In this document: one piece after another, positions 10,585 to 28,669 of the stretch | Numbering within the stretch: the first letter of the stretch is position 1 | Layout of the letters: the number at the start of each line of letters is the position of its first letter | Assembly: GCF_013415905.1 (NCBI RefSeq) | Contig: NZ_CP058909.1 | Span: forward strand, 3,658,001-3,722,000 | Direction of reading: 5' to 3' | From: Halosimplex pelagicum | GTDB lineage: Archaea; Halobacteriota; Halobacteria; Halobacteriales; Haloarculaceae | Length of the DNA stretch: 64,000 nucleotides | Translations under genes and position numbers: made by a program | The notes under the pieces: generated by a model | The model's input: only the letters and a program-made list of their open reading frames with translations | Databases searched by the model: none | Told to the model about the DNA's origin: nothing

Positions 10585-10597
10585 GAACCTTTTTGCA
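10585..10597 (+). promoter_or_regulatory. T-rich promoter element upstream of bioB
   Basis: GAACCTTTTTGCA is centred about 29 nt upstream of the GTG at 10620. This spacing fits leaderless initiation there and argues against the in-frame TTG at 10593, which falls inside the element. Confidence 0.45.
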
Positions 10598-10619: not shown

Positions 10620-11768
10620 GTGGTTTACGAGACCGGCAACCGAACGATAGACGACGCCGTCGAGCGCGTGCTGGCGGGCGAGCGCCTCGACCGCCGCGAC
10701 GGACTGGCGCTGATCGCACAGCCGGTCGAGGAGCTGGCCGCGGCGGCCGACGCCGTCCGCGCCGAGTTCGGCGACGGCACCGTCGACGCCTGCTCGATCG
10801 TCAACGCCAAGGCCGGCGACTGCGCCGAGGATTGTGGCTTCTGCGCCCAGTCGGTCCACTTCGACACCGGCATCGACAACTACGGCTTCCTCGGCCCCGA
10901 GAAGATCCTCGAAGCGGCGAAGCGGGCCGAGCGCGACGGCGCCCAGCGGTTCGGCATCGTCGTCGCCGAGAAGGGCGTCTCGAAGGAACACCGCCCGGAG
11001 GAGTGGGAAGAGGTCCTCGAAGCTATCCGACTGGTCCGCGACGAGACCGACGTGGAGGTGGACGCATCCCTGGGCATCCTCACCGAGGAGGAAGCCGAGA
11101 TCCTGGCCGACGAGGGACTCAACCACTACAATCACAACATCGAGACCTCCCCGAACTTCTTCCCCGAGATCGTCGACAGCCACGCCTTCGAGGACCGCGT
11201 GGAGACGCTGGAAGTCGCGAAGGAGGCCGGCATGGACCTCTGTGCGGGCGTCATCCTCGGCATGGGCGAGAGCCCGACCGACCGGGTCGACGCGGCGGTC
11301 GCCCTGCAGGACGTGGGCGTCTCCTCGCTCCCGGTGAACATCCTCAATCCCGTCGCGGGCACGCCGCTGGGCGAGCGGTTCGACGACGGCGCGGCGATTT
11401 CGACCGAGGAGATCGTCTCGACAATCGCGGTCTACCGACTGTTGCACCCCCACGCGCGGGTGCGGCTGACCGGCGGCCGGGAGGCCAACCTCGACGCTGA
11501 CGAGCAACACCTGCCGTTCGAGGCCGGCGCCGACGGGATGCTCACCGGCGACTACCTCACGACCGAGGGCCAGTCGCCCGCCGACGACATCGAGGTCGTC
11601 GAACGCGCAGGGCTTGAGCCCAACACCGAGGCCAACGACTTCGACCCGGCCTCGGTGAAGGCGCGTCACGCCGACGGCGGGACGGACGCTCCGAGCGAAC
11701 CCGACGGTGGTGACGCGGGCGACGCGGAGACGGCTGCCGGCAGCGCGACCAGCAACGTTTCGGACTGA
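10620..11768 (+). CDS. bioB: Biotin synthase (radical SAM)
   Basis: 382 aa. The radical-SAM cysteines CxxxCxxC are Cys68, Cys72 and Cys75 in GDCAEDCGFCAQS. Other BioB landmarks are YNHNIETSPNFF, GVILGMGES and LTGGREANL. It inserts sulfur into dethiobiotin, using a [4Fe-4S] cluster for SAM cleavage and a second auxiliary cluster as sulfur donor. The C-terminus has an acidic, disordered tail of about 35 residues not needed by the fold. I chose GTG 10620 (MVYETGNRTIDDAV). It heads the bioB - bioU-like - unknown - bioF - bioD run, all on the plus strand. Confidence 0.93.
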   Translation: MVYETGNRTIDDAVERVLAGERLDRRDGLALIAQPVEELAAAADAVRAEFGDGTVDACSIVNAKAGDCAEDCGFCAQSVHFDTGIDNYGFLGPEKILEAAKRAERDGAQRFGIVVAEKGVSKEHRPEEWEEVLEAIRLVRDETDVEVDASLGILTEEEAEILADEGLNHYNHNIETSPNFFPEIVDSHAFEDRVETLEVAKEAGMDLCAGVILGMGESPTDRVDAAVALQDVGVSSLPVNILNPVAGTPLGERFDDGAAISTEEIVSTIAVYRLLHPHARVRLTGGREANLDADEQHLPFEAGADGMLTGDYLTTEGQSPADDIEVVERAGLEPNTEANDFDPASVKARHADGGTDAPSEPDGGDAGDAETAAGSATSNVSD

Positions 11769-11798
11769 CGACGACAGCAGACGGTTTCAGACACACAC

Positions 11799-12977
11799 AT
11801 GGACGACGACGTGACATTCGCGGTACTCGGCACTGGCGGCATCGGCAGACGAACGCTCGACGTGGCCCGGCACAAGGACGGTCTGACCCCGGTCGCGGCC
11901 TGCGACCGCAACGGCGTCGCGGTCGACCACGATGGCCTCGACGTGGAGGAACTGCTCGACGCGACGGAGGGCAACATCGCCTCGGGTCCCGAGGCCGATG
12001 GCGACACGCCCGCGACGCCGACCGACGACTACGCGTCGGACGGCGGTCTCGCGAGTCACGCGAGCGAGACCTCGTCAGAGCCGGGCTCTGACGGCGGAGC
12101 CGCCGCCGTCGAGGGCGGTTCGGTCGGCGACGGGACCGCCAGCGACGGCGTGAAACAGGCCGGGGAAGACGCCGGCATCGTCGCCAGCGCGCAGGGCGAA
12201 CCCACCGAGACGCCGATCGACGACGTGATCGCCGAGAGCGACGCTATCGACGCTGTCCTGCTCGCACTCCCGAACCTCGAACACGACTTCATTCCCCGGG
12301 TCGCCGAGCGGTTCGCCGACGCGAGCTACGAGGGCGTCCTCGTCGACGTGCTCAAGCGCTCGCGGGTCATCGGGATGCTCGACGACCGCGCCGACACGCT
12401 CGAATCGAGCGGCATCACGTTCGTCTGCGGCGCGGGCGCGACCCCCGGCTTCCTCACCGGCGCGGCGGCGCTGGCCGCCCAGTCGTTCGTCGAGGTCGAA
12501 TCAGTCGAGATCTGGTGGGGCGTCGGTCTCAAATCCGGCTACGAGGACAACCGCGGCACCGTGCGCGAGGACATCGCCCACCTCGACGGCTACGACATCG
12601 AGCGCGCCCGGGAGATGAGCGAGGCCGAGATCGAGGACCTCATCGAGGAGCACGACGGCCGATTGGAGTTCCACGACATGGAGCACGCCGACGACGTGCT
12701 GCTGGAGCGCGCCGGCATCTGCGACGCCGAGGACGTGTCGGTCGGCGGGGTGCTGGACGTGCGCTCCGACGAGAAACCGACGACGACGACCGTCCGGGTC
12801 ACCGGCACGACCTTCGACGGGGAGCGCGGCACCAACACCTTCGAACTCGACGACGCGACGAGCATGGAGGCCAACGTCAACGGGCCCGCGCTGGGCTACC
12901 TGAAGGCCGCCGTCCTCCGCAACCGCGCGGGCGACTACGGCGTCTACGGCCCCGCGGAAGTCATGCCGAGCTTCTGA
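11799..12977 (+). CDS. bioU: Saccharopine-dehydrogenase-like oxidoreductase, probable BioU (single-turnover DAPA synthase)
   Basis: 392 aa. The N-terminal Rossmann motif is AVLGTGGIGRRTLDVARHK, and the middle domain includes FVCGAGATPGFLTGAAALA. This is the fold of cyanobacterial BioU, which replaces BioA by donating its own lysine amino group to the KAPA-derived substrate. The candidate lysine is Lys186 in VLVDVLKRSRVIG. Removing an Asp/Gly/Ser-rich insert of about 60 residues (roughly 62-122) places it near position 125, close to Lys124 of Synechocystis BioU as I recall it. It starts 31 nt after bioB and lies upstream of bioF and bioD; no bioA is in the window. The function is inferred from family and context. 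Confidence 0.75.
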   Translation: MDDDVTFAVLGTGGIGRRTLDVARHKDGLTPVAACDRNGVAVDHDGLDVEELLDATEGNIASGPEADGDTPATPTDDYASDGGLASHASETSSEPGSDGGAAAVEGGSVGDGTASDGVKQAGEDAGIVASAQGEPTETPIDDVIAESDAIDAVLLALPNLEHDFIPRVAERFADASYEGVLVDVLKRSRVIGMLDDRADTLESSGITFVCGAGATPGFLTGAAALAAQSFVEVESVEIWWGVGLKSGYEDNRGTVREDIAHLDGYDIERAREMSEAEIEDLIEEHDGRLEFHDMEHADDVLLERAGICDAEDVSVGGVLDVRSDEKPTTTTVRVTGTTFDGERGTNTFELDDATSMEANVNGPALGYLKAAVLRNRAGDYGVYGPAEVMPSF

Positions 12978-13063
12978 GCGGCGCTTTGAGGTCCCCCGCG
13001 GCGTCGTGCTTCCCGTTCGCACGGTTCGACCAGCGTTTAGTCCCCCGGCCGCGCAGGTCGGTC

Positions 13064-13663
13064 ATGGTCGACATGGAGCCGTTCTGCGAGTACTGCGAGT
13101 TCGGCGGCGACCGGGTGTACCTGCTCGTGGCGCTCGCGCGGGCCAAGGAGAACGAGGGGACGACGAGCAACGCGGCGCCGGCGATCCGGAAGGTCGTCGA
13201 GAGCGAGGGCGAACTCGCCCGGAAAGCCGCCGAGCTGGCCCACGCCGCGAGCCGGTTCGACGAGCGGTTTCGCCTCTACCTGACCGCCAACGCCCGCGAC
13301 GCGTTGAAGGCGACGTTCGAACTCCGGCGGTCGATGGACGACTGGCTGGAGGGGCGGATCCACGGCGACGAGGGCGTCCGCGGGAAGTTCAAGCGGGTCG
13401 ACGGCGAGTTCCTGTCGACGCTGCAGTCGGACGCCTGCCGCGACGAGACGAACTTCGTCTTCGATCTGGACGACGCGACCGCGGCCGACCGCGACACGCT
13501 CGTCGAGGACCTGCGGGGCCACACCGAGGTCGCCCTCACTCGCGAGACGCCGAACGGCTACCACGTCGTCACCGAACCGTTCAACTACAACGAGCTGACG
13601 ACCGCCGTCGAGTACGAGCTGAAGACCGACGGGATGGTCTTCGTCTCGTATCTGGACGGGTAG
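13064..13663 (+). CDS. Unknown protein encoded inside the biotin locus
   Basis: 199 aa, not recognised. The N-terminus has one CxxC pair (FCEYCEFGGDRVYLLVALARAKEN). The middle is helical and charged (ELARKAAELAHAASRFDERFRLY). The C-terminal ~75 residues look like an alpha/beta domain with NFVFDLDDATAADRDTLVEDL, a TRETPNGYHVVTEPFNY segment and a final VFVSYLDG. There is no signal peptide or membrane segment. It lies 86 nt after bioU and 85 nt before bioF, all on the same strand, so it may be a bystander or a new biotin-pathway factor. A small pol-like or nucleotide-binding fold is possible but unsupported. Confidence 0.7.
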   Translation: MVDMEPFCEYCEFGGDRVYLLVALARAKENEGTTSNAAPAIRKVVESEGELARKAAELAHAASRFDERFRLYLTANARDALKATFELRRSMDDWLEGRIHGDEGVRGKFKRVDGEFLSTLQSDACRDETNFVFDLDDATAADRDTLVEDLRGHTEVALTRETPNGYHVVTEPFNYNELTTAVEYELKTDGMVFVSYLDG

Positions 13664-13748
13664 TTGACCCTGTAGGTGCGGTCGCGTCCCTGTTGGGCTG
13701 GCGCGGCCGACCGAAAGGACGAGGGGCGAGCGGCCCGCGCTCCCGGGT

Positions 13749-14960
13749 ATGACCGAGCGCGGTTTCGACCTCGACGCGCGACTGCGGGAGCGCGAACGCG
13801 CGGGGCTGCGGCGCCACCTCGACCCGGCCGAGTCCGTGGGTGCGCGGACACGATTCAGCCCCGATCCGCGGGGCGAGGCGCCGGACTACGGCGACCAGTC
13901 GCTCGTGTTCGCCTCGAACAACTACCTCGGGCTGGCGAGCGACCGCCGGGTCCTCCAGGCCGCCGAGAACGCCGCCCGCGCGGTCGGCACCGGTGCGGGC
14001 GCCTCCCGCCTCGTCACCGGCGACACCGGCCTCCACCGGGCGCTCGAACGCGATCTGGCCGACTGCAAGGGCTGTGAGCGGGCGCTCCTGTTCTCCTCGG
14101 GTTACGCCGCCAATATCGGAACCATCGAGGCGCTCGCGCCGGACGTGGTGTTCTCGGACGAACTCAACCACGCGAGCATCGTCGACGGCTGTCGCGTCGG
14201 TGCGGCGGAGACCGTCGTCTACGACCACGCCGACCCCGACGACCTGCGGGCGAAGATGGCCCAGCGAGCGGCCGGCTCGCTCGACAGCGGGACCGAGGAG
14301 GAGTGGCTCGTCGTCACGGACACGGTGTTCTCGATGGACGGCGACGTGGCGCCGCTGGCGGCGATCTGCGACGCGGCCGAGGCGTTCGGTGCGTGGGTGA
14401 TGGTCGACGAGGCCCACGCGACGGGACTGTTCGGCGACGGCGGCGGCGTCGTCCAGCGGGAGGGACTGGCCGACCGCGTCGACGTGCAACTCGGCACGTG
14501 CTCGAAGGCCCTGGCGAGCCAGGGCGGCTACGTCGCCGGCGACGAGGCGCTCGTGGAGTACCTCTTGAACGCCGCGCGCTCGTTCGTCTTCTCGACGGGA
14601 CTGGCGCCGCCGGCGGTCGGCGCCGCCCGCGAGTCCCTGCGGATCGCCCGCGAGACCGACCGGGCCGAGCGGCTCTGGGAGACCGTCGCGACGCTTCGCG
14701 AGGGGCTGGAATCGATGGGGTACGAGGTACTCGGCGAGACGCAGATCCTCCCGGTGCTGGTCGGCGACCGGGAAGACGCGGTGGAACTGGGGGAGCGACT
14801 GGCCGACCGCGGGGTCGAGGCGCCGGCCATCCGTCCGCCGACGGTTCCGGAGGGGACCGCCCGCATCAGGGTCGCGCCGATGGCCACCCACACCGACGAG
14901 GAGGTGGCTCGCTGTCTCGACGCCTTCGAGGCCGCCGGTCGGGAGGTGGGACTGCTGTGA
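13749..14960 (+). CDS. bioF: 8-amino-7-oxononanoate (KAPA) synthase
   Basis: 403 aa, alpha-oxoamine synthase family, PLP-dependent. Landmarks: FASNNYLGLASD, GAGASRLVTGDTGLH, FSDELNHASIVDG, VMVDEAHATGLFG (PLP-binding Asp), and the Schiff-base Lys253 in GTCSKALASQGGY. It condenses pimeloyl-CoA/ACP with L-alanine to give KAPA, the substrate of the BioU-like enzyme encoded upstream. Glycine C-acetyltransferase is the main alternative within the family; placement directly before bioD settles the call. Its stop overlaps the bioD start. Confidence 0.92.
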   Translation: MTERGFDLDARLRERERAGLRRHLDPAESVGARTRFSPDPRGEAPDYGDQSLVFASNNYLGLASDRRVLQAAENAARAVGTGAGASRLVTGDTGLHRALERDLADCKGCERALLFSSGYAANIGTIEALAPDVVFSDELNHASIVDGCRVGAAETVVYDHADPDDLRAKMAQRAAGSLDSGTEEEWLVVTDTVFSMDGDVAPLAAICDAAEAFGAWVMVDEAHATGLFGDGGGVVQREGLADRVDVQLGTCSKALASQGGYVAGDEALVEYLLNAARSFVFSTGLAPPAVGAARESLRIARETDRAERLWETVATLREGLESMGYEVLGETQILPVLVGDREDAVELGERLADRGVEAPAIRPPTVPEGTARIRVAPMATHTDEEVARCLDAFEAAGREVGLL

Positions 14961-15670
14961 GCGACGACCGCACGGAGCCCGTGGCGGAACTGTCCGGCGA
15001 GAGCGTGTCGGACTTCGCGGTGGTCGGCACGGACACCGGCGTCGGGAAGACGGTCGTGACGGCGGGACTGGTCGGCTGGCTCCGGGGTGCCGGCGTCGAC
15101 GCCCGCGCCGTCAAACCGGCACAGACCGGGTATCCGCCGGACGACGACGCCGGCTTCGTCGCCGACGCCTGCGGGACCGACGCGGCCGCGACCTGTCTCG
15201 AACGGCTCGAACCGGCGCTCGCGCCGGCCGTCGCCGCCGAGCGCGAGGGAGTCGACCTGTCCTACGACGCGATCCGCGAGGGGTGCGAGCGGGAACTCGC
15301 CGACGCGGCGGTCGGCGTCGTCGAGGGGATCGGCGGGCTGCGCGTCCCGCTGGCCGACGACCGGGAGGTCGTCGACCTCGTGGCAGACCTCGGAGTGCCC
15401 GCGCTCGTCGTCGCGCGCTCGGGCCTGGGGACGCTCAACCACACGGCGCTGACCGTCGAAGCGCTCGAACGCCGCGGCTGTGCGGTCGAAGGGATCGTTC
15501 TCAACGAGTACGAGGGCGCCTCGGTCGCCGAGCGGACCAACCCCGACGTGCTCGCCGACATGACCGGCCGTCCGGTGTGGACGCTGCCGCCGCTAGGAAT
15601 CGACGAGCCCCGCGACGCCGTCACCGGCGTCCGCGAACGGCTCCCGACGGACGCGTTTCCGACCGGGTGA
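14957..15670 (+). CDS. bioD: Dethiobiotin synthetase
   Basis: 237 aa. The P-loop VVGTDTGVGKTVVTAGL and the KPAQTGYPPDD segment are classic BioD. VVEGIGGLRVPLADD holds the ligand-binding Glu-Gly. It carboxylates diaminopelargonate and closes the ureido ring with ATP. The GTG start at 14957 overlaps the bioF stop (GTGA), preceded at 8-nt spacing by GGAGGTG, a good Shine-Dalgarno match for an internal operon gene. If the BioU-like enzyme already delivers a carbamate, BioD would only need to do the ATP-dependent ring closure. Confidence 0.92.
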   Translation: MSDDRTEPVAELSGESVSDFAVVGTDTGVGKTVVTAGLVGWLRGAGVDARAVKPAQTGYPPDDDAGFVADACGTDAAATCLERLEPALAPAVAAEREGVDLSYDAIREGCERELADAAVGVVEGIGGLRVPLADDREVVDLVADLGVPALVVARSGLGTLNHTALTVEALERRGCAVEGIVLNEYEGASVAERTNPDVLADMTGRPVWTLPPLGIDEPRDAVTGVRERLPTDAFPTG

Positions 15671-16000: not shown

Positions 16001-17143
16001 TCACTCCTCGTCGGTGTCAGTGTCCTCGTCGGTGTCGGGGTCGTGGTCGCTCCCGGCGTCGGGATCGGCGCCGAGGCCCAGTTCGCCGTCCGCGAGCAGT
16101 CCCTCCAGATCGGCGTGGTCGGCGAGAAGGTCGACCATCCGCTCGACGGTCTCCGGGTCGCGGGTCCGGCCAGTGGAGATCACTTCCTCGACGCGGTCGA
16201 TGGTCACCCTGGTGTCGGACTGGACGAGCAGGACCGGCACGTCGGCCTCGGCCGCCTTGCCGAGGATGGCGCCCGAGGGCCTGAGCCCGCCGGTGAGGAC
16301 GATACACTCGATGCCGGGGGCTTCGAGCGCGGCGGCCTGGATCTCCGAGCGGTCGCCGCCGGTGACCATCGCGGCGTTGCGCATCCGCCGGAAGTGCCGC
16401 AGGGCCTCGTCGCTGCCCATCGCGCCGACGGCGAACCGCTCGACGAAGCCGTCGGTCGACGCCTCGGGGTTGAGGAGGTCGGCGCCGAGCGCGTCGGCTA
16501 GGTCCGCGACGGTGACGCCGGCGAGTTCCTGCACGCGCGGGACGATGCCGAGGACGGGGATGTCCCGCGCTTCGAGGAACGGCACCACGTCCGTGTTCAG
16601 CGAGTCGAAGTTCGCGTCGGCGACGGCGTTGAACAGCACGCCCGCGAGCCGCCCCTCGAACTGCCGGGCGGCGGCGAGCACGCCGTCCACGTCGGCCGGG
16701 TTGGCGTAGCCGCCGACGACGACCGTGCGCGCGTCGAGCAGTTCGGCCACGTCGGGGTCGGTCAGGCCGACGATGCCGCCGGTCTCCAGGCGGCCGCCCC
16801 CTTCGACGACGACCAGGTCGTAGTCGTCGGCGAGCGCGTCGAAGTGCTCGCGCACCCGCTCGCGGACCTCCCCGTCGCGGTTGCCGCGGATGGCCTCCTC
16901 GATGAACGCCGGGGAGTAGACCACGGGTTCCAGATCCGCCAGGTCGGCGTCGATGCCGAGTATCTCCCTGGCGAGCAGCGGGTCCTCGTCGCGTGTCTTG
17001 CCGACGGGGCTCTTGAGGCGGGTGCCCTTGGGCTTGAAGTAGGCCACGTCGAGGCCGCGGTCCTGGGCGAGTTTCGCGACGGCGATCGCGATGGCTGTCT
17101 TGCCGGTGCCTTCTCCGGTCGAAGTGACGAATATCGGTTTCAT
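16001..17143 (-). CDS. BioD-like P-loop / DRTGG domain protein (phosphotransacetylase-family regulator)
   Basis: 380 aa. The N-terminal P-loop domain resembles BioD/CobB: FVTSTGEGTGKTAIAIAVA, LVVVEGGGRLETGGIVG. The DRTGG domain follows (about residues 215-325, VTGGDRSEIQAAALE to VLTGGLRPSGAILG). The catalytic phosphotransacetylase domain of bacterial homologues is missing, so it is unlikely to make acetyl phosphate itself. The tail is an Asp/Thr/Glu repeat. Its ATG overlaps the stop of the acyl-CoA synthetase gene (ATGA), implying translational coupling. I infer a regulatory or sensor role in acetate/acyl-CoA energy metabolism. It should not be mistaken for a second bioD. Confidence 0.85.
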   Translation of the reverse strand: MKPIFVTSTGEGTGKTAIAIAVAKLAQDRGLDVAYFKPKGTRLKSPVGKTRDEDPLLAREILGIDADLADLEPVVYSPAFIEEAIRGNRDGEVRERVREHFDALADDYDLVVVEGGGRLETGGIVGLTDPDVAELLDARTVVVGGYANPADVDGVLAAARQFEGRLAGVLFNAVADANFDSLNTDVVPFLEARDIPVLGIVPRVQELAGVTVADLADALGADLLNPEASTDGFVERFAVGAMGSDEALRHFRRMRNAAMVTGGDRSEIQAAALEAPGIECIVLTGGLRPSGAILGKAAEADVPVLLVQSDTRVTIDRVEEVISTGRTRDPETVERMVDLLADHADLEGLLADGELGLGADPDAGSDHDPDTDEDTDTDEE

Positions 17144-23983: not shown

Positions 23984-24361
23984 TCAGACCGGCTCGAACC
24001 GGTAGCCGTCCCAGTCCTGGCTCTCGGGCACCTTGATGCCCGCCTCGGGGTCGCGCAACTCCTCGACGTAGATCGGCTCGACGGCGTCGCCGGTCTCGAC
24101 CTCGTCGGTCGTGACCTGCCCGACCGCGCGGACGTAGTCGTCGGTCAGGTCCTCCCCGTCGAGGTCGAACTGGACGATCGCGATCGTGTTCGGCGCGCGG
24201 ACGCCGGGCGGAGTCGCCGTCGACTTCGTCCAGGTGACGACCTCGCCGGTGCGCTCGGCGAGGTCCAGGGTGTCGGTCTGTTTCTCCCCGCATTCGGGAC
24301 AGAGCGTGTGTCCCGGGTAGGTGACGTGTCCGTTCTCGCAGACGTGGGCGTCGAAGCTCAT
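23984..24361 (-). CDS. Zn-ribbon/OB-fold (DUF35) protein, beta subunit of thiolase
   Basis: 125 aa. The N-terminal rubredoxin-like zinc ribbon has Cys8, then CPEC at Cys21/Cys24. The OB-fold follows (GEVVTWTKSTATPPGVRAP, AIVQFDLDGEDLTDDYVRAVGQV). In haloarchaeal beta-ketothiolases this small subunit is required for activity of the catalytic subunit encoded just upstream. The start overlaps the thiolase stop (ATGA) and is preceded by GGAGG at SD spacing. It is the last gene of the five-gene minus-strand run. Related DUF35 proteins shuttle acyl-CoA to HMG-CoA synthase in archaea. Confidence 0.87.
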   Translation of the reverse strand: MSFDAHVCENGHVTYPGHTLCPECGEKQTDTLDLAERTGEVVTWTKSTATPPGVRAPNTIAIVQFDLDGEDLTDDYVRAVGQVTTDEVETGDAVEPIYVEELRDPEAGIKVPESQDWDGYRFEPV

Positions 24362-25509
24362 TGTCCTGCCTCCATGATGGTGGTGATGACGCAGTTGCCG
24401 AACCCGCCGACGTTGCAGGCGAGACCGGTGTCGGCCTCGACCTGCCGCGGTCCCGCCTCGCCGACGAGCTGTTTGTAAATCTCGTAGCCCTGTGCGACCC
24501 CGCTGGCGCCGAGCGGGTGCCCCTTCGATTTCAGCCCGCCCGAGGTGTTGATCGGCAGTTCGCCGTCCTTCTCGGTGCGACCCTCCTCGACCTGCTTCCA
24601 GGCCTCGCCCTGCTCGGCGAAGCCACAGCCCTCCATCTGCAGGAACTCCAGGATGGTGAACATGTCGTGGAGTTCCGCCACGTCGATATCGTCGGGGCCG
24701 ATCCCGGCCATCTCGTAGGCCTGATCGCTGGAGTCGACGACGCCGCCCATGACGGTCGGGTCGTCCCGTTCGTGGACGACGTGGGTGTCCGTGGCACCGG
24801 CGATCCCCGAGATCACAGCGTAGTCGTCTGTGATCTCCTTCGCGCGCTCCTCGGTCGTGAACACCATCCCGGCGCTGCCGTCGGTGATCGGACAGAAGTC
24901 GTACAGCCGGAGGGGGTCGGCGACGATCGGACTCTCCAGGGCGGTCTCCTCGTCGATCTCCTTCCGGAACTGCGCGTGGGGGTTGTCCACGCCGTTCCTG
25001 TGGTTCTTGACCGCGACCTTCGCGAGCGACTCGCGCGGCGCGTCGAACCGTTCGAGGTAGTGCCGGGCGGTCATGCCGGCGAAGGAGGGCAGCGTGAGAC
25101 CGTGCTTGTACTCGGCGGGGTGGGTGATCGAGGCGATGATGTCCGTCGACTCGGCGGTCGAGCGGTGGGTCATCTTCTCGCCGCCGACCAGGAGGGTCAT
25201 GTCGCTCGCCCCGGAGGCGACCGACTGCCAGGCCTCGTAGATGCCGGCGCCGCCCGACGAGGAGGTCTGGTCGACCCGCTCACTGTAGGCGGGCATGACG
25301 CCGAGGTCGTGTGCGAGGGCGTTCATGATCCCCGTCTGGCCCTGGAACTCGCCGCTGGACATGTTCGAGACGTAGAGGTGCTCCACGTCGTCGGGCTCGA
25401 TGCCGGCGTCGTCGAGCGCGGCCTCGCCCGCCTGGGCGATCAGCTCCTGAATCCAGGCGTCGCGCTCGCCGAACTTCGTCATCGACGCGCCGATCACTGC
25501 GACTGTCAT
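24358..25509 (-). CDS. Haloarchaeal-type beta-ketothiolase, catalytic alpha subunit (Ser replaces Cys)
   Basis: 383 aa thiolase/SCP2-like fold. The nucleophile loop reads RVDQTSSSGGAG, so Ser83 stands where bacterial thiolases have Cys. The two catalytic histidines remain in AELHDMFT and KSKGHPLGASG. A Ser-His-His triad with a separate OB-fold subunit was described, as I recall, for the PhaA/BktB enzymes of Haloferax mediterranei PHA synthesis. It would condense two acyl-CoAs or cleave 3-ketoacyl-CoA. The start at ATG 25509 gives the conserved MTVAVIGASMTKFGER. It sits downstream of pccX and fabG/phaB on the same strand. Confidence 0.88.
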   Translation of the reverse strand: MTVAVIGASMTKFGERDAWIQELIAQAGEAALDDAGIEPDDVEHLYVSNMSSGEFQGQTGIMNALAHDLGVMPAYSERVDQTSSSGGAGIYEAWQSVASGASDMTLLVGGEKMTHRSTAESTDIIASITHPAEYKHGLTLPSFAGMTARHYLERFDAPRESLAKVAVKNHRNGVDNPHAQFRKEIDEETALESPIVADPLRLYDFCPITDGSAGMVFTTEERAKEITDDYAVISGIAGATDTHVVHERDDPTVMGGVVDSSDQAYEMAGIGPDDIDVAELHDMFTILEFLQMEGCGFAEQGEAWKQVEEGRTEKDGELPINTSGGLKSKGHPLGASGVAQGYEIYKQLVGEAGPRQVEADTGLACNVGGFGNCVITTIMEAGQ

Positions 25510-25607
25510 GTGCGGACCCTCGGAGGGCTGTAATGTGGGTGTTACGGTGGCGAGGGTCGGTGGACGGTCGAACGGCGGTGGTCGCCCCCGTTCCCGCGAG
25601 GCGCCCC

Positions 25608-25976
25608 TCAGTAGAACGAGCGTGCGCTGGCCTTCCACTCCTCGCCCTTGCGCACGTCCTTGGGCCAGCGGCTCCGCCCCATCGACTTCATCCGGCCGGC
25701 GAGGGTCCAGGCGTCCGCCCGGTCCGGTTCGTCGTCCGCGGCGGCCGCGGCGGCCGCGGCGACCCGCCGGTCGTGGAGGTGGGCGCCGACCGCCGAGGCG
25801 ATGGCCGCGGCCTCGGCCTCGTCGGCATCGGCCGGGAGCGATACCGACACCTCGTCGCCGTCGACGGTGAGCGTCACGGTGTCACCGTCCGGTTCGCCGC
25901 TCGATCCGGCGCCGGAGCCGTCGGCGGTCGCGTCGGCGTTCGATTCCTCGCCGTCGGAGAGTGCTGTGTCGGCCAT
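25608..25976 (-). CDS. pccX: Small subunit of propionyl/acyl-CoA carboxylase (PccX-like)
   Basis: 122 aa. The first ~45 residues are an acidic disordered leader. TVTLTVDGDEVSVSLPADADE is followed by an Ala-rich helix (AAAIASAVGAHLHDRRVAAAAAAAA). The C-terminus is basic and aromatic, WTLAGRMKSMGRSRWPKDVR, resembling the epsilon subunit of actinobacterial acyl-CoA carboxylases. Haloarchaeal propionyl-CoA carboxylase needs such a third subunit in addition to PccA and PccB. Start and pccB stop overlap by one base (TAATG), which supports the pairing. The biotin carboxylase/BCCP subunit (pccA) is not in the window. Confidence 0.78.
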   Translation of the reverse strand: MADTALSDGEESNADATADGSGAGSSGEPDGDTVTLTVDGDEVSVSLPADADEAEAAAIASAVGAHLHDRRVAAAAAAAADDEPDRADAWTLAGRMKSMGRSRWPKDVRKGEEWKASARSFY

Positions 25977-27613
25977 TACAGTGGGATGTTGCCGTGGTCT
26001 TTCGGCGGGCTGTCCTCGCGCTTGCGTTCGAGCATCTCCAGGTCGTCGATGAGTCGCTTGCGCGTGTCCTTTGGCTCGATCACGTCGTCGAGATAGCCCC
26101 GCTTCGCGGGACCGTAGGGGTGGGCGAACTCCTCGCGGAACTCGTCCATCAGCTCCTGGCGGCGGGCGTCCGTGTCCTCGGCCTGCTGGAGCTCGTCGCG
26201 GTAGAGGATGTTGACCGCGCCGCGGGGGCCGAGCACGGCCATCTCCGAGGCCGGCCAGGCGTAGTTCACGTCCGAGCCGAGGAACTTCGAGGACATGACG
26301 ATGTACGCCCCGCCGTAGGCCTTCCGGACGACCACCGACAGCAGCGGCACGGTCGCCTCGGCGTAGGCGTAGATGAGCTTCGCCCCCCGGCGGATGATCC
26401 CGTTGTGCTCCTGGTCGGTGCCGGGCATGAACCCCGGCACGTCGACCAGCGAGACGATGGGGACGTTGAACGAGTCGCAGGTGCGGATGAAGCGTGCGGC
26501 CTTCTCCGAGGCGTCGATGTCGAGGGTCCCCGCGCTGACGCGGGGCTGGTTGGCGACGACGCCGACGACGCGCCCGTCCATGCGGGCGTAGCCGACGACG
26601 ACGTTGCGCGCCCAGTTCTCGTGGACCTCGAAGAACGAATCCTCGTCGACCACGCGGTCGATCACCTTCGTCATGTCGTAGGGCTTGCGCGGCGCCTCCG
26701 GCACGATGTCCGTGATCCCGTCGAGTTCCCGGTCGGGGTCGTCCCACGAGGCCACTCGCGGCGGGTCCTCCAGGTTGTTCTGCGGGAGATAGGAGAGGAG
26801 CCGGCGGATGTCGTCGAGCGCCTGCTCCTCGTCGTCGCAGGCGAAATGCGCGACGCCGGACTTCGTGGAGTGGGAGCCCGCGCCGCCGAGTTCCTCCTTC
26901 GAGACCTGCTCGCCGGTGACCGTCTCGATCACGTCCGGCCCGGTGATGAACATGTGGGAGGTGTCCTGGACCATGAACGTGAAGTCGGTCAGCGCCGGCG
27001 AGTAGGTCGCCCCGCCTGCGCAGGGCCCCATGATAGCCGAGATCTGGGGGATCATCCCGGAGGCCTTCGTGTTGCGCTCGAAGATCTTGGCGAAGCCGAC
27101 CAGCGAGTCGACGCCCTCCTGGATGCGCGCGCCGCCGGAGTCGTTGAGCCCGACCACCGGGACGCCGGCGTCGACGGCCCGATCCATCACCTTGCAGATC
27201 TTGTCGGCGACGACCTCGCCGACCGAACCTCCGAGGACGGTGAAGTCGTGGGCGAAGACGAACACCTTCCGGCCGTTCACGTCGCCGTAGCCCGTCACGA
27301 CCGCGTCGCCGGGGAACTCCTTCTCGTCCATCCCGAAGGCGGTCGCCCGGTGCTCGACGAACGGGTCGACCTCGGTGAACGTGCCGTCGTCGACGAAGTA
27401 CTCGACGCGCTCGTGGGCGGTCATCTTCCCGCGGGCGTGCTGGCGCTCGATGCGCTCCTCGCCGCCGCCCAGGCGGGACTCCTCGCGGCGCCGGCGCAGC
27501 TCTTCGAGCGCCGACTCTTCCTCGGCGCCGTCGGCCTCCTGGCCGCCGGACCCCTCTGCTGTCCCGTCCGATGCCTCCGAATCCGTCGCCTCGTCTGTCT
27601 CTTCCTGGCTCAT
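25976..27613 (-). CDS. pccB: Propionyl/acyl-CoA carboxylase, carboxyltransferase beta subunit
   Basis: 545 aa. Two crotonase-like carboxyltransferase halves are visible: GGSVGEVVADKICKVMDRAV with NDSGGARIQEGVDSLVGF, and VVGVVANQPRVSAGTLD with LVDVPGFMPGTDQEHNGIIRRGAKL and RKAYGGAYIVMSSK. The motif order and length match PccB/AccB rather than glutaconyl decarboxylase. It moves the carboxyl group from carboxybiotin to propionyl-CoA (or acetyl-CoA). It begins 1 nt from the fabG stop and ends overlapping pccX, so the three are co-transcribed. The cell must biotinylate its partner, which gives the biotin locus at 10.6 kb a clear customer. Confidence 0.92.
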   Translation of the reverse strand: MSQEETDEATDSEASDGTAEGSGGQEADGAEEESALEELRRRREESRLGGGEERIERQHARGKMTAHERVEYFVDDGTFTEVDPFVEHRATAFGMDEKEFPGDAVVTGYGDVNGRKVFVFAHDFTVLGGSVGEVVADKICKVMDRAVDAGVPVVGLNDSGGARIQEGVDSLVGFAKIFERNTKASGMIPQISAIMGPCAGGATYSPALTDFTFMVQDTSHMFITGPDVIETVTGEQVSKEELGGAGSHSTKSGVAHFACDDEEQALDDIRRLLSYLPQNNLEDPPRVASWDDPDRELDGITDIVPEAPRKPYDMTKVIDRVVDEDSFFEVHENWARNVVVGYARMDGRVVGVVANQPRVSAGTLDIDASEKAARFIRTCDSFNVPIVSLVDVPGFMPGTDQEHNGIIRRGAKLIYAYAEATVPLLSVVVRKAYGGAYIVMSSKFLGSDVNYAWPASEMAVLGPRGAVNILYRDELQQAEDTDARRQELMDEFREEFAHPYGPAKRGYLDDVIEPKDTRKRLIDDLEMLERKREDSPPKDHGNIPL

Positions 27614-27614
27614 C

Positions 27615-28358
27615 TCACCACTCCATCCCGCCGTTGACGCCGATCACCTGGCCGGTCATGTAGCTGGACTCCTCGCTGGCGACGAAGGAGACGATCCCGC
27701 AGATGTCCTCGACGGTGGCGAACCGGTCGAGGGGGATCTCCCGAAGGATCTTCTCCTGGACGCGCTCGGGCACCTCCTCCAGCATGTCCGTCTCGACGAA
27801 CCCGGGCGCGATGCAGTTGGCCGTCGACCCCGAGGAGGCCATCTCCAGAGCGATGGTGCGGGTGAACCCGAACAGGCCCGACTTCGTCGTCGCGTAGTTG
27901 GCCTGGCCGTAGTTGCCCTGCTGGCCGACGACCGACGAGATGTTGATGAGTCGGCCGTGGCGGCTCTCCTTGATGTCGTCGAAGAAGGTCTTCGTGCAGT
28001 TGTAGACGCCGCCGAGGTTCACGTCGATGACGGCGTCCCAGTCCTCGCGGGTCATGTGCTCGAACTTCTTGTCGACGGTGATGCCGGCGTTGTTGACGAG
28101 CACGTCGACGGGCCCGAAGGCGTCGACGACCTCCTCGCGCATCGCCTGCACCTCCTCGAAGTCGGACACGTCGGCCTGGGCGGCGACCGCCCGTCCCCCC
28201 TCGTCCTCGATGGACTCGACGACCGCCTGGGCCTCCGCCGCCGACGACCGGTAGTTGACCACGACGTCCGCGCCGCGGGCGGCGAGGTCCTCGGCGATAC
28301 CTCTCCCGATACCGCGGGAACTCCCCGTGACGAGGCAGGTCTGGCCCTCCAGGTTCAT
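27615..28358 (-). CDS. SDR-family 3-oxoacyl reductase (FabG/PhaB-like)
   Basis: 247 aa, standard length. The cofactor motif TGSSRGIGRGIAEDLA, NNAGIT, catalytic Ser in ISSVVGQQGNYG, and YxxxK in YATTKSGLFGFTR are all present. VNGGMEW is a typical FabG/PhaB end. It would reduce a 3-ketoacyl-CoA made by the thiolase of the same operon to 3-hydroxyacyl-CoA, using NADPH, the second step of polyhydroxyalkanoate synthesis. A fatty-acid-type role is the alternative. ATG 28358 is the only sensible start; a TATA-like CTATTAACC near 28418-28426 implies a 5' leader of about 35 nt. Confidence 0.9.
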   Translation of the reverse strand: MNLEGQTCLVTGSSRGIGRGIAEDLAARGADVVVNYRSSAAEAQAVVESIEDEGGRAVAAQADVSDFEEVQAMREEVVDAFGPVDVLVNNAGITVDKKFEHMTREDWDAVIDVNLGGVYNCTKTFFDDIKESRHGRLINISSVVGQQGNYGQANYATTKSGLFGFTRTIALEMASSGSTANCIAPGFVETDMLEEVPERVQEKILREIPLDRFATVEDICGIVSFVASEESSYMTGQVIGVNGGMEW

Positions 28359-28669
28359 CGCCTCGACCTCCGTTCGCGACGGTCCCGATTCATGTGATAC
28401 AGTGGCCCCCGGAGACGGGTTAATAGTTCCCCTTGCAACGGTTACATAACGCATCGGTAGTGTCGTGTACCTGTCCCGAACAGAACCCGAACGAAGAGGG
28501 TCAATTTACGTCGAAACGGACGAATCTGGATCGCGAGTACCCGTTCTGTCACGAAATCGTTCCCACGTGGGTATCGAGCGCGTCGGCGGCTGTTCGGTGG
28601 GGACCATCGGAGAATCGGACGGGTGTCCGGCGGTCCTCGGGGCGTTCGCTCGGCGGGCCGCGGGTGGCG
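28359..28669. other. 311-bp gap: promoter of the fabG-pcc-thiolase operon
   Basis: The left part carries the minus-strand promoter of the fabG-pccB-pccX-thiolase run (CTATTAACC near 28418-28426). The rest lies between the stop of the upstream regulator and this promoter. It contains a 10-bp palindrome CCCACGTGGG at 28562-28571. No gene was recognised. Confidence 0.5.

Follow-up and report, generated by a model that had tools for sequence, protein, structure and literature searches.

How could an archaeon that keeps bioB, bioF and bioD, with no bioA beside them, make the 7,8-diaminopelargonic acid (DAPA) required for biotin? The question is raised by an operon of Halosimplex pelagicum (assembly GCF_013415905.1, contig NZ_CP058909.1, positions 3,658,001-3,722,000), in a stretch of 64,000 nucleotides that we refer to as the window and within which all coordinates are given; the genome it comes from consists of one contig of 5.2 Mb, with a listed contamination of 6.45%. 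On the plus strand, at 10620-15670, the genes run bioB-bioU-(orf199)-bioF-bioD without a bioA within the run, an arrangement that an initial annotation of this DNA had described and that the sequence and the NCBIfam scores confirm. The second gene encodes a homologue of BioU, the enzyme that stands in for BioA in Synechocystis, where it is known as Slr0355 (PMC12915131). We consider it very probable that this operon directs biotin synthesis from a pimeloyl thioester, BioU replacing BioA and each BioU molecule working once, and the analysis presented here supports the initial annotation in its interpretation of BioU as acting in place of BioA.

Homology of the second gene to BioU

A search of solved protein chains aligned the bioU product with the Slr0355 chains of Synechocystis (PDB 6ir4, 6k36, 6itd, 6k37 and 6k38) at E-values from 5e-79 (6ir4) to 1.5e-77, and these chains were the sole solved-structure matches below E 0.001. 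The aligned segments, residues 8-55 and 120-392, take in most of the chain, with 46% identity over 283 residues, and both proteins have a glycine-rich nucleotide-binding start. The NCBIfam model for BioU, NF047886, is the top family for the product (327 bits, cut-off 600), and the Pfam search gave only two weak Rossmann-type matches, both under their cut-offs, with no match to PF00202, the BioA-type aminotransferase domain. Judged by homology, the second gene of the operon belongs to the broad BioU homologous family, and the novelty is the addition of archaeal members to a family that is already known.

The resemblance to BioU had originally been proposed at the level of the fold, and it extends to the sequence itself; the accompanying description of the gene as saccharopine-dehydrogenase-like does not hold. 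An ordinary saccharopine or homospermidine dehydrogenase sitting in the operon by chance would share the related Rossmann-type fold asserted in that description, but neither Pfam nor NCBIfam gives a match to such a family at E 0.1, none of the 15 PDB sequences retrieved with E-values of up to 10 bears such a name, and the linkage of the gene to bioB and bioF is kept in most of the 80 related loci analyzed below. Contradicted by the Pfam, NCBIfam and PDB searches, this identity was rejected, and we deem it extremely improbable.

The catalytic residues lend themselves to a direct comparison. His296 of the bioU product aligns with the histidine that is replaced by Ala in 6k38, and which we take to be the second active-site residue of BioU. 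Lys186 aligns with the position occupied by Lys in 6ir4 and by Ala in 6itd, as had been anticipated for the catalytic lysine; in Slr0355 the sacrificed residue is Lys124, which is consumed in the reaction (PMC12915131, describing Sakaki et al.). The conservation of both residues was assessed on 133 BioU copies, comprising 30 loci from the genome search (the window's own, L010, included), 80 loci from a contig search, three of seven plasmid matches and 20 further stretches picked mostly for lower identity, with broken pieces (L120-L135) and strong-match genomes that were not fetched lying outside this set. The first two groups (L010-L039 and L040-L119) share species, so that the catalytic part is represented by 114 different sequences among the 133 copies. 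The lysine, within the motif [VIL]DVLKRSR, and the equivalent of His296 are each present in 133/133 copies, no copy among them lacking the catalytic lysine, and an alignment of 40 copies contains two invariant lysines, Lys186 and Lys326.

The haloarchaeal protein differs from Slr0355 in an additional segment ahead of the lysine motif. The DG and lysine motifs are 134 residues apart in the window copy, 84-134 residues in the 57 of 133 copies in which the length of the insert can be measured, and 69 residues in Slr0355, so that all 57 archaeal copies carry 15-65 extra residues. The insert had been thought specific to the lineage; the window copy does have the longest one among the 57, but extra length over Slr0355 is common to them all.

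Distribution of BioU and absence of BioA

Co-occurrence was analyzed in 392 genomes of the order Halobacteriales (GTDB), drawn evenly from a larger group, scoring for each genome at most four candidates for BioU and bioA, five for bioB and nine for bioD. A BioU match at E 1e-3 was obtained in 170 genomes, and presence was counted at better than 1e-60, which drops 18 weak rows and leaves 152. BioD is above cut-off in 149 genomes, 148 of which are among the 152 with strong BioU (the BioU and bioD lists were matched by hand and the bioB list was read by eye). In G364, the sole genome with bioD and without strong BioU, bioF is cut at two contig ends, and the upstream part is therefore probably absent from the assembly. 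Conversely, four genomes with strong BioU have no bioD above cut-off: in the three that were opened, bioD is fragmented or lies at the end of a contig, and the assembly of the fourth, G081, is 71% complete. The bioU pieces of G265 and G294 (L120, L121, L128, L129) lie in several frames; such broken or remnant bioU genes are either pseudogenes or sequencing errors.

The association extends to gene order. Among the best 80 of 106 loci from the contig search, bioB accompanies bioU in 77, bioF in 78 and bioD in 75. The three loci lacking bioB are L071, at a contig end, and L057 and L066, which are full-length, while four of the five lacking bioD are contig pieces of 5.7-7.6 kb and the fifth is L089. 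The latter is the second BioU copy of Halorientalis salina and stands beside bioB, without bioF or bioD; both copies of this species (L079 and L089) have the lysine, and G253 may be the same genome. BioU and bioF are mostly adjacent, with one to a few kb between them in some loci (e.g. L045, L048, L049, L053 and L115). On the three plasmids opened (NZ_CP078064.1, NZ_CP119793.1 and NZ_CP120471.1; L166-L168) the BioU homologue also lies between bioB and bioF, and a single scan for viral copies gave six pattern matches and no relative.

BioB is more widespread, being above cut-off in 178 of the 392 genomes, 29 of them without strong BioU. None of these 29 has bioD above cut-off, and none has bioA above cut-off with all bioA candidates scored. 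We opened 18 of the 29 loci, with about 7 kb on either side, and found bioB alone, without bioF, bioU or bioD, in 14 (L169-L177, L179-L182 and L185); of the remaining four, one has bioB and a BioU remnant, one has bioB, a BioU remnant and bioF, and two have bioB and bioF without BioU or bioD. The remnants of bioU adjoining bioB were observed in G243 and G169 (L184 and L186). We read the genomes with bioB and without BioU as reflecting loss of the pathway; a solitary bioB would suit the salvage of external dethiobiotin, an idea put forward in PMC9561691.

BioA, or BioK (TIGR00508), is a pyridoxal phosphate-dependent DAPA aminotransferase that would fill the same pathway step as BioU but belongs to an unrelated protein family. 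In the window's genome, with all candidates scored, no protein is above the TIGR00508 cut-off of 405 bits, the four proteins scored reaching 228, 227, 141 and 104 bits, and none is above it in any of the 392 genomes of the order, where no more than four candidates of each genome were scored, at a limit of 1e-100. Six controls did pass the cut-off, among them Bacillus subtilis, which has the lysine-using form of the enzyme according to the title of a cited reference. These results are in line with a table published in 2018, which lists bioB in 19, bioF in 18, bioD in 14 and bioA in none of 31 Halobacteria (PMC6138646). The search for bioA or bioK elsewhere in the genome, which the initial annotation had called for, thus returned nothing above cut-off, and, on the candidates scored, a hidden bioA was rejected for this genome, for the order and for the archaeon G665 described below.

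The aminotransferases that the genome does encode define a different alternative, in which DAPA arises from a side activity of an enzyme of the ArgD or GabT type and the BioU-like protein does another job, such as regulation. Four proteins match the class-III aminotransferase family PF00202: two are above the ArgD-family cut-off TIGR00707, one is above NF000818, the model for glutamate-1-semialdehyde aminomutase (HemL-type), and the fourth reaches the cut-off of none of the 25 families listed for it, its nearest being an acetylornithine aminotransferase family. The two ArgD-type enzymes and the unplaced one could be candidates for such an activity, and a regulatory role would agree with the annotation of the BioU homologue in plasmid records, where it is called 'transcriptional regulator' in six of seven cases and 'hypothetical protein' in one. 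Set against this, the matches to BioU in the PDB and NCBIfam run along most of the chain, Pfam yields no DNA-binding family for the bioU product at E 0.1, BioU accompanies bioD in all but one of the genomes that have it, and the best BioA-model score in the genome falls far short of the cut-off. We judge this explanation highly unlikely.

BioU is also found outside the order. At E 1e-15 it was detected in 25 of 374 genomes of the phylum, two of which, G665 and G669, do not belong to Halobacteriales. The operon of G665 reads bioB-bioW-bioU-bioF-bioD, with bioB, bioW, bioF and bioD above their cut-offs and no bioA above cut-off (best score 296 bits). Its BioU has 333 residues, lacks the insert, keeps the lysine and the histidine, and shows 55% identity with Slr0355 and 51% with the window protein; even so, the insert-free protein scores 430.6 bits with NF047886, under the cut-off of 600. 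The copy of G669 begins at a contig end past the lysine position, which places the lysine outside the available sequence. For comparison, the Methanococcales gene set bioW-bioF-bioA-bioD-bioB is another archaeal route to biotin, starting from pimelate (Table 1 of PMC6138646): it uses BioA, whereas G665, from the phylum of the window's organism, has BioU together with BioW, and it includes bioW, for which the window's genome gives no match.

Proposed reaction and its alternatives

The role of the gene in the biotin pathway is backed by its homology, by the alignment and conservation of the catalytic lysine and histidine, by operon linkage, by the near one-to-one co-occurrence with bioD and by the absence of any bioA above cut-off. 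By analogy with the cyanobacterial enzyme, BioF would form 8-amino-7-oxononanoate (KAPA), which would be bound by BioU, its ketone condensing with the epsilon-amino group of Lys186. The resulting imine would then be reduced with NAD(P)H, CO2 would be taken up on the conjugate, and re-oxidation with NAD(P)+ would let the lysine nitrogen depart in DAPA-carbamate, leaving residue 186 as allysine. BioD would close the ureido ring and BioB would insert sulfur, and each BioU molecule would be used once.

Several points weigh against this reading. The chemistry is known from the cyanobacterial enzyme and, with its single turnover, is carried over to the archaeal copies, where it is presumed to operate. 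The archaeal proteins of the window and of G665 score under the cut-off of the curated model NF047886, and the window's bioU product is not filed under it; the bioF product is likewise slightly below the TIGR00858 cut-off (402.5 vs 426.45 bits). Judging from sequence, an ArgD-type aminotransferase could have promiscuous DAPA activity. The genome encodes a BioY biotin-importer component, so biotin may be imported and the organism's own synthesis need not be essential. Lastly, the count of 148 genomes includes at least two (G265 and G294) with BioU in pieces, L057 and L066 lack bioB inside a full 6 kb flank, and bioB and bioF occur together without BioU or bioD in 2 of the 18 loci mentioned above.

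A further alternative keeps the substrate and changes the turnover: haloarchaeal BioU could be a true catalyst, with Lys186 regenerated after every turnover or with the amino group supplied by a free amine such as lysine. This would fit with the many positions, nearly invariant among the haloarchaeal copies, at which they differ from Slr0355, and with their extra variable segment, but the sacrificial lysine and the histidine are kept in every copy, and the neighbourhood of the operon offers no common repair partner. Clustering of open reading frames (ORF) in the 80 loci recovered bioU in 80, bioB in 77, bioF in 76 and bioD in 50, plus frames antisense to the biotin genes; these antisense frames apart, no other cluster is present in more than 25 loci, the commonest looking by eye like replication factor C, and hence no repair gene is conserved beside the operon, although one could lie elsewhere in the genome. 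The regeneration of spent BioU, which the initial annotation had entertained, finds no support in the gene neighbourhood, and we regard a true catalyst as unlikely. It is equally doubtful that haloarchaea keeping bioD obtain DAPA from BioU alone by virtue of a BioU that is now multi-turnover, through a restored lysine or another amine, or that cyanobacterial BioU descended from such a catalyst; if true, a suicide enzyme would have been turned into a real catalyst, or derived from one.

The locus, its surroundings and implications

The features of the operon are listed in Table 1. A TTG codon at 10593, upstream of the GTG start assigned to bioB, is likewise open, and the longest ATG/GTG frame of a relative (L040) also starts with MVYETGN, as does bioB from its GTG. 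The GTG start of bioD overlaps the bioF stop by four bases, as read from the sequence.

Table 1. Annotated features of the biotin operon, in window coordinates
Feature	Position	Strand	Basis and remarks
bioB, biotin synthase	10620-11768	+	TIGR00433, 339 bits (cut-off 225); GTG start
bioU, predicted KAPA-to-DAPA(carbamate) enzyme, 392 residues	11799-12977	+	Homology to Synechocystis Slr0355
bioU insert, low-complexity, Asp/Gly/Ser/Ala-rich, variable	11967-12155	+	About residues 57-119; approximate bounds, set by eye
Lys186 codon of bioU	12354-12356	+	Predicted amino donor
orf199, 199 residues	13064-13663	+	Outside conserved operon; no known family
bioF, KAPA synthase	13749-14960	+	TIGR00858, 402.5 bits (cut-off 426.45); top of 19 families
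bioD, dethiobiotin synthase	14957-15670	+	TIGR00347, 117.3 bits (cut-off 83.3); GTG start

The remaining gene of the run, orf199, has no NCBIfam match at 0.01 and a single Pfam match (E 0.17) under its cut-off. It occurs in 4 of the 80 related loci, three of them from Halosimplex and the other with the gene on the opposite strand, away from the operon. On these grounds we rejected a part for it in the pathway or in repair, and we regard the gene as incidental to the operon.

Downstream of the operon and facing it, a BioD-like AAA_26 protein with a DRTGG domain is encoded on the minus strand at 16001-17143; a relative is present in 18 of the 80 bioU loci. Of the propionyl-CoA carboxylase genes initially placed at 26 kb and described as adjacent, one carboxyltransferase-domain gene was confirmed on the minus strand (25976-27613), about 10 kb away and outside the operon; it adjoins a short-chain dehydrogenase gene (27615-28454) and has a thiolase gene nearby (24358-25638).

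Published records provide further context. Natronomonas pharaonis is described as prototrophic for biotin, with three or more biotin genes, and Natrialba magadii as a biotin auxotroph that lacks such genes (PMC3403918). In Haloferax mediterranei, HFX_5076, HFX_5077 and HFX_5079 are given as dethiobiotin synthase, 8-amino-7-oxononanoate synthase and BioB, respectively (PMC10779274), and HFX_5078 would thus sit at the position expected of bioU. Our literature searches turned up no paper dedicated to archaeal BioU, though mentions inside papers may exist, and haloarchaea may be among the organisms given in the 2020 BioU paper.

BioU would explain how haloarchaea that keep bioB, bioF and bioD without bioA could make biotin, closing a pathway gap visible across an order with the archaeal branch of an already known family of enzymes and giving a testable name to a protein called a transcriptional regulator in plasmid records. 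It would also broaden the range of a single-use vitamin enzyme, known from cyanobacteria, to archaea within the order and beyond it. Haloferax species are genetically tractable, which may allow a measurement in the living cell of what a suicide enzyme costs and of its repair, if any.

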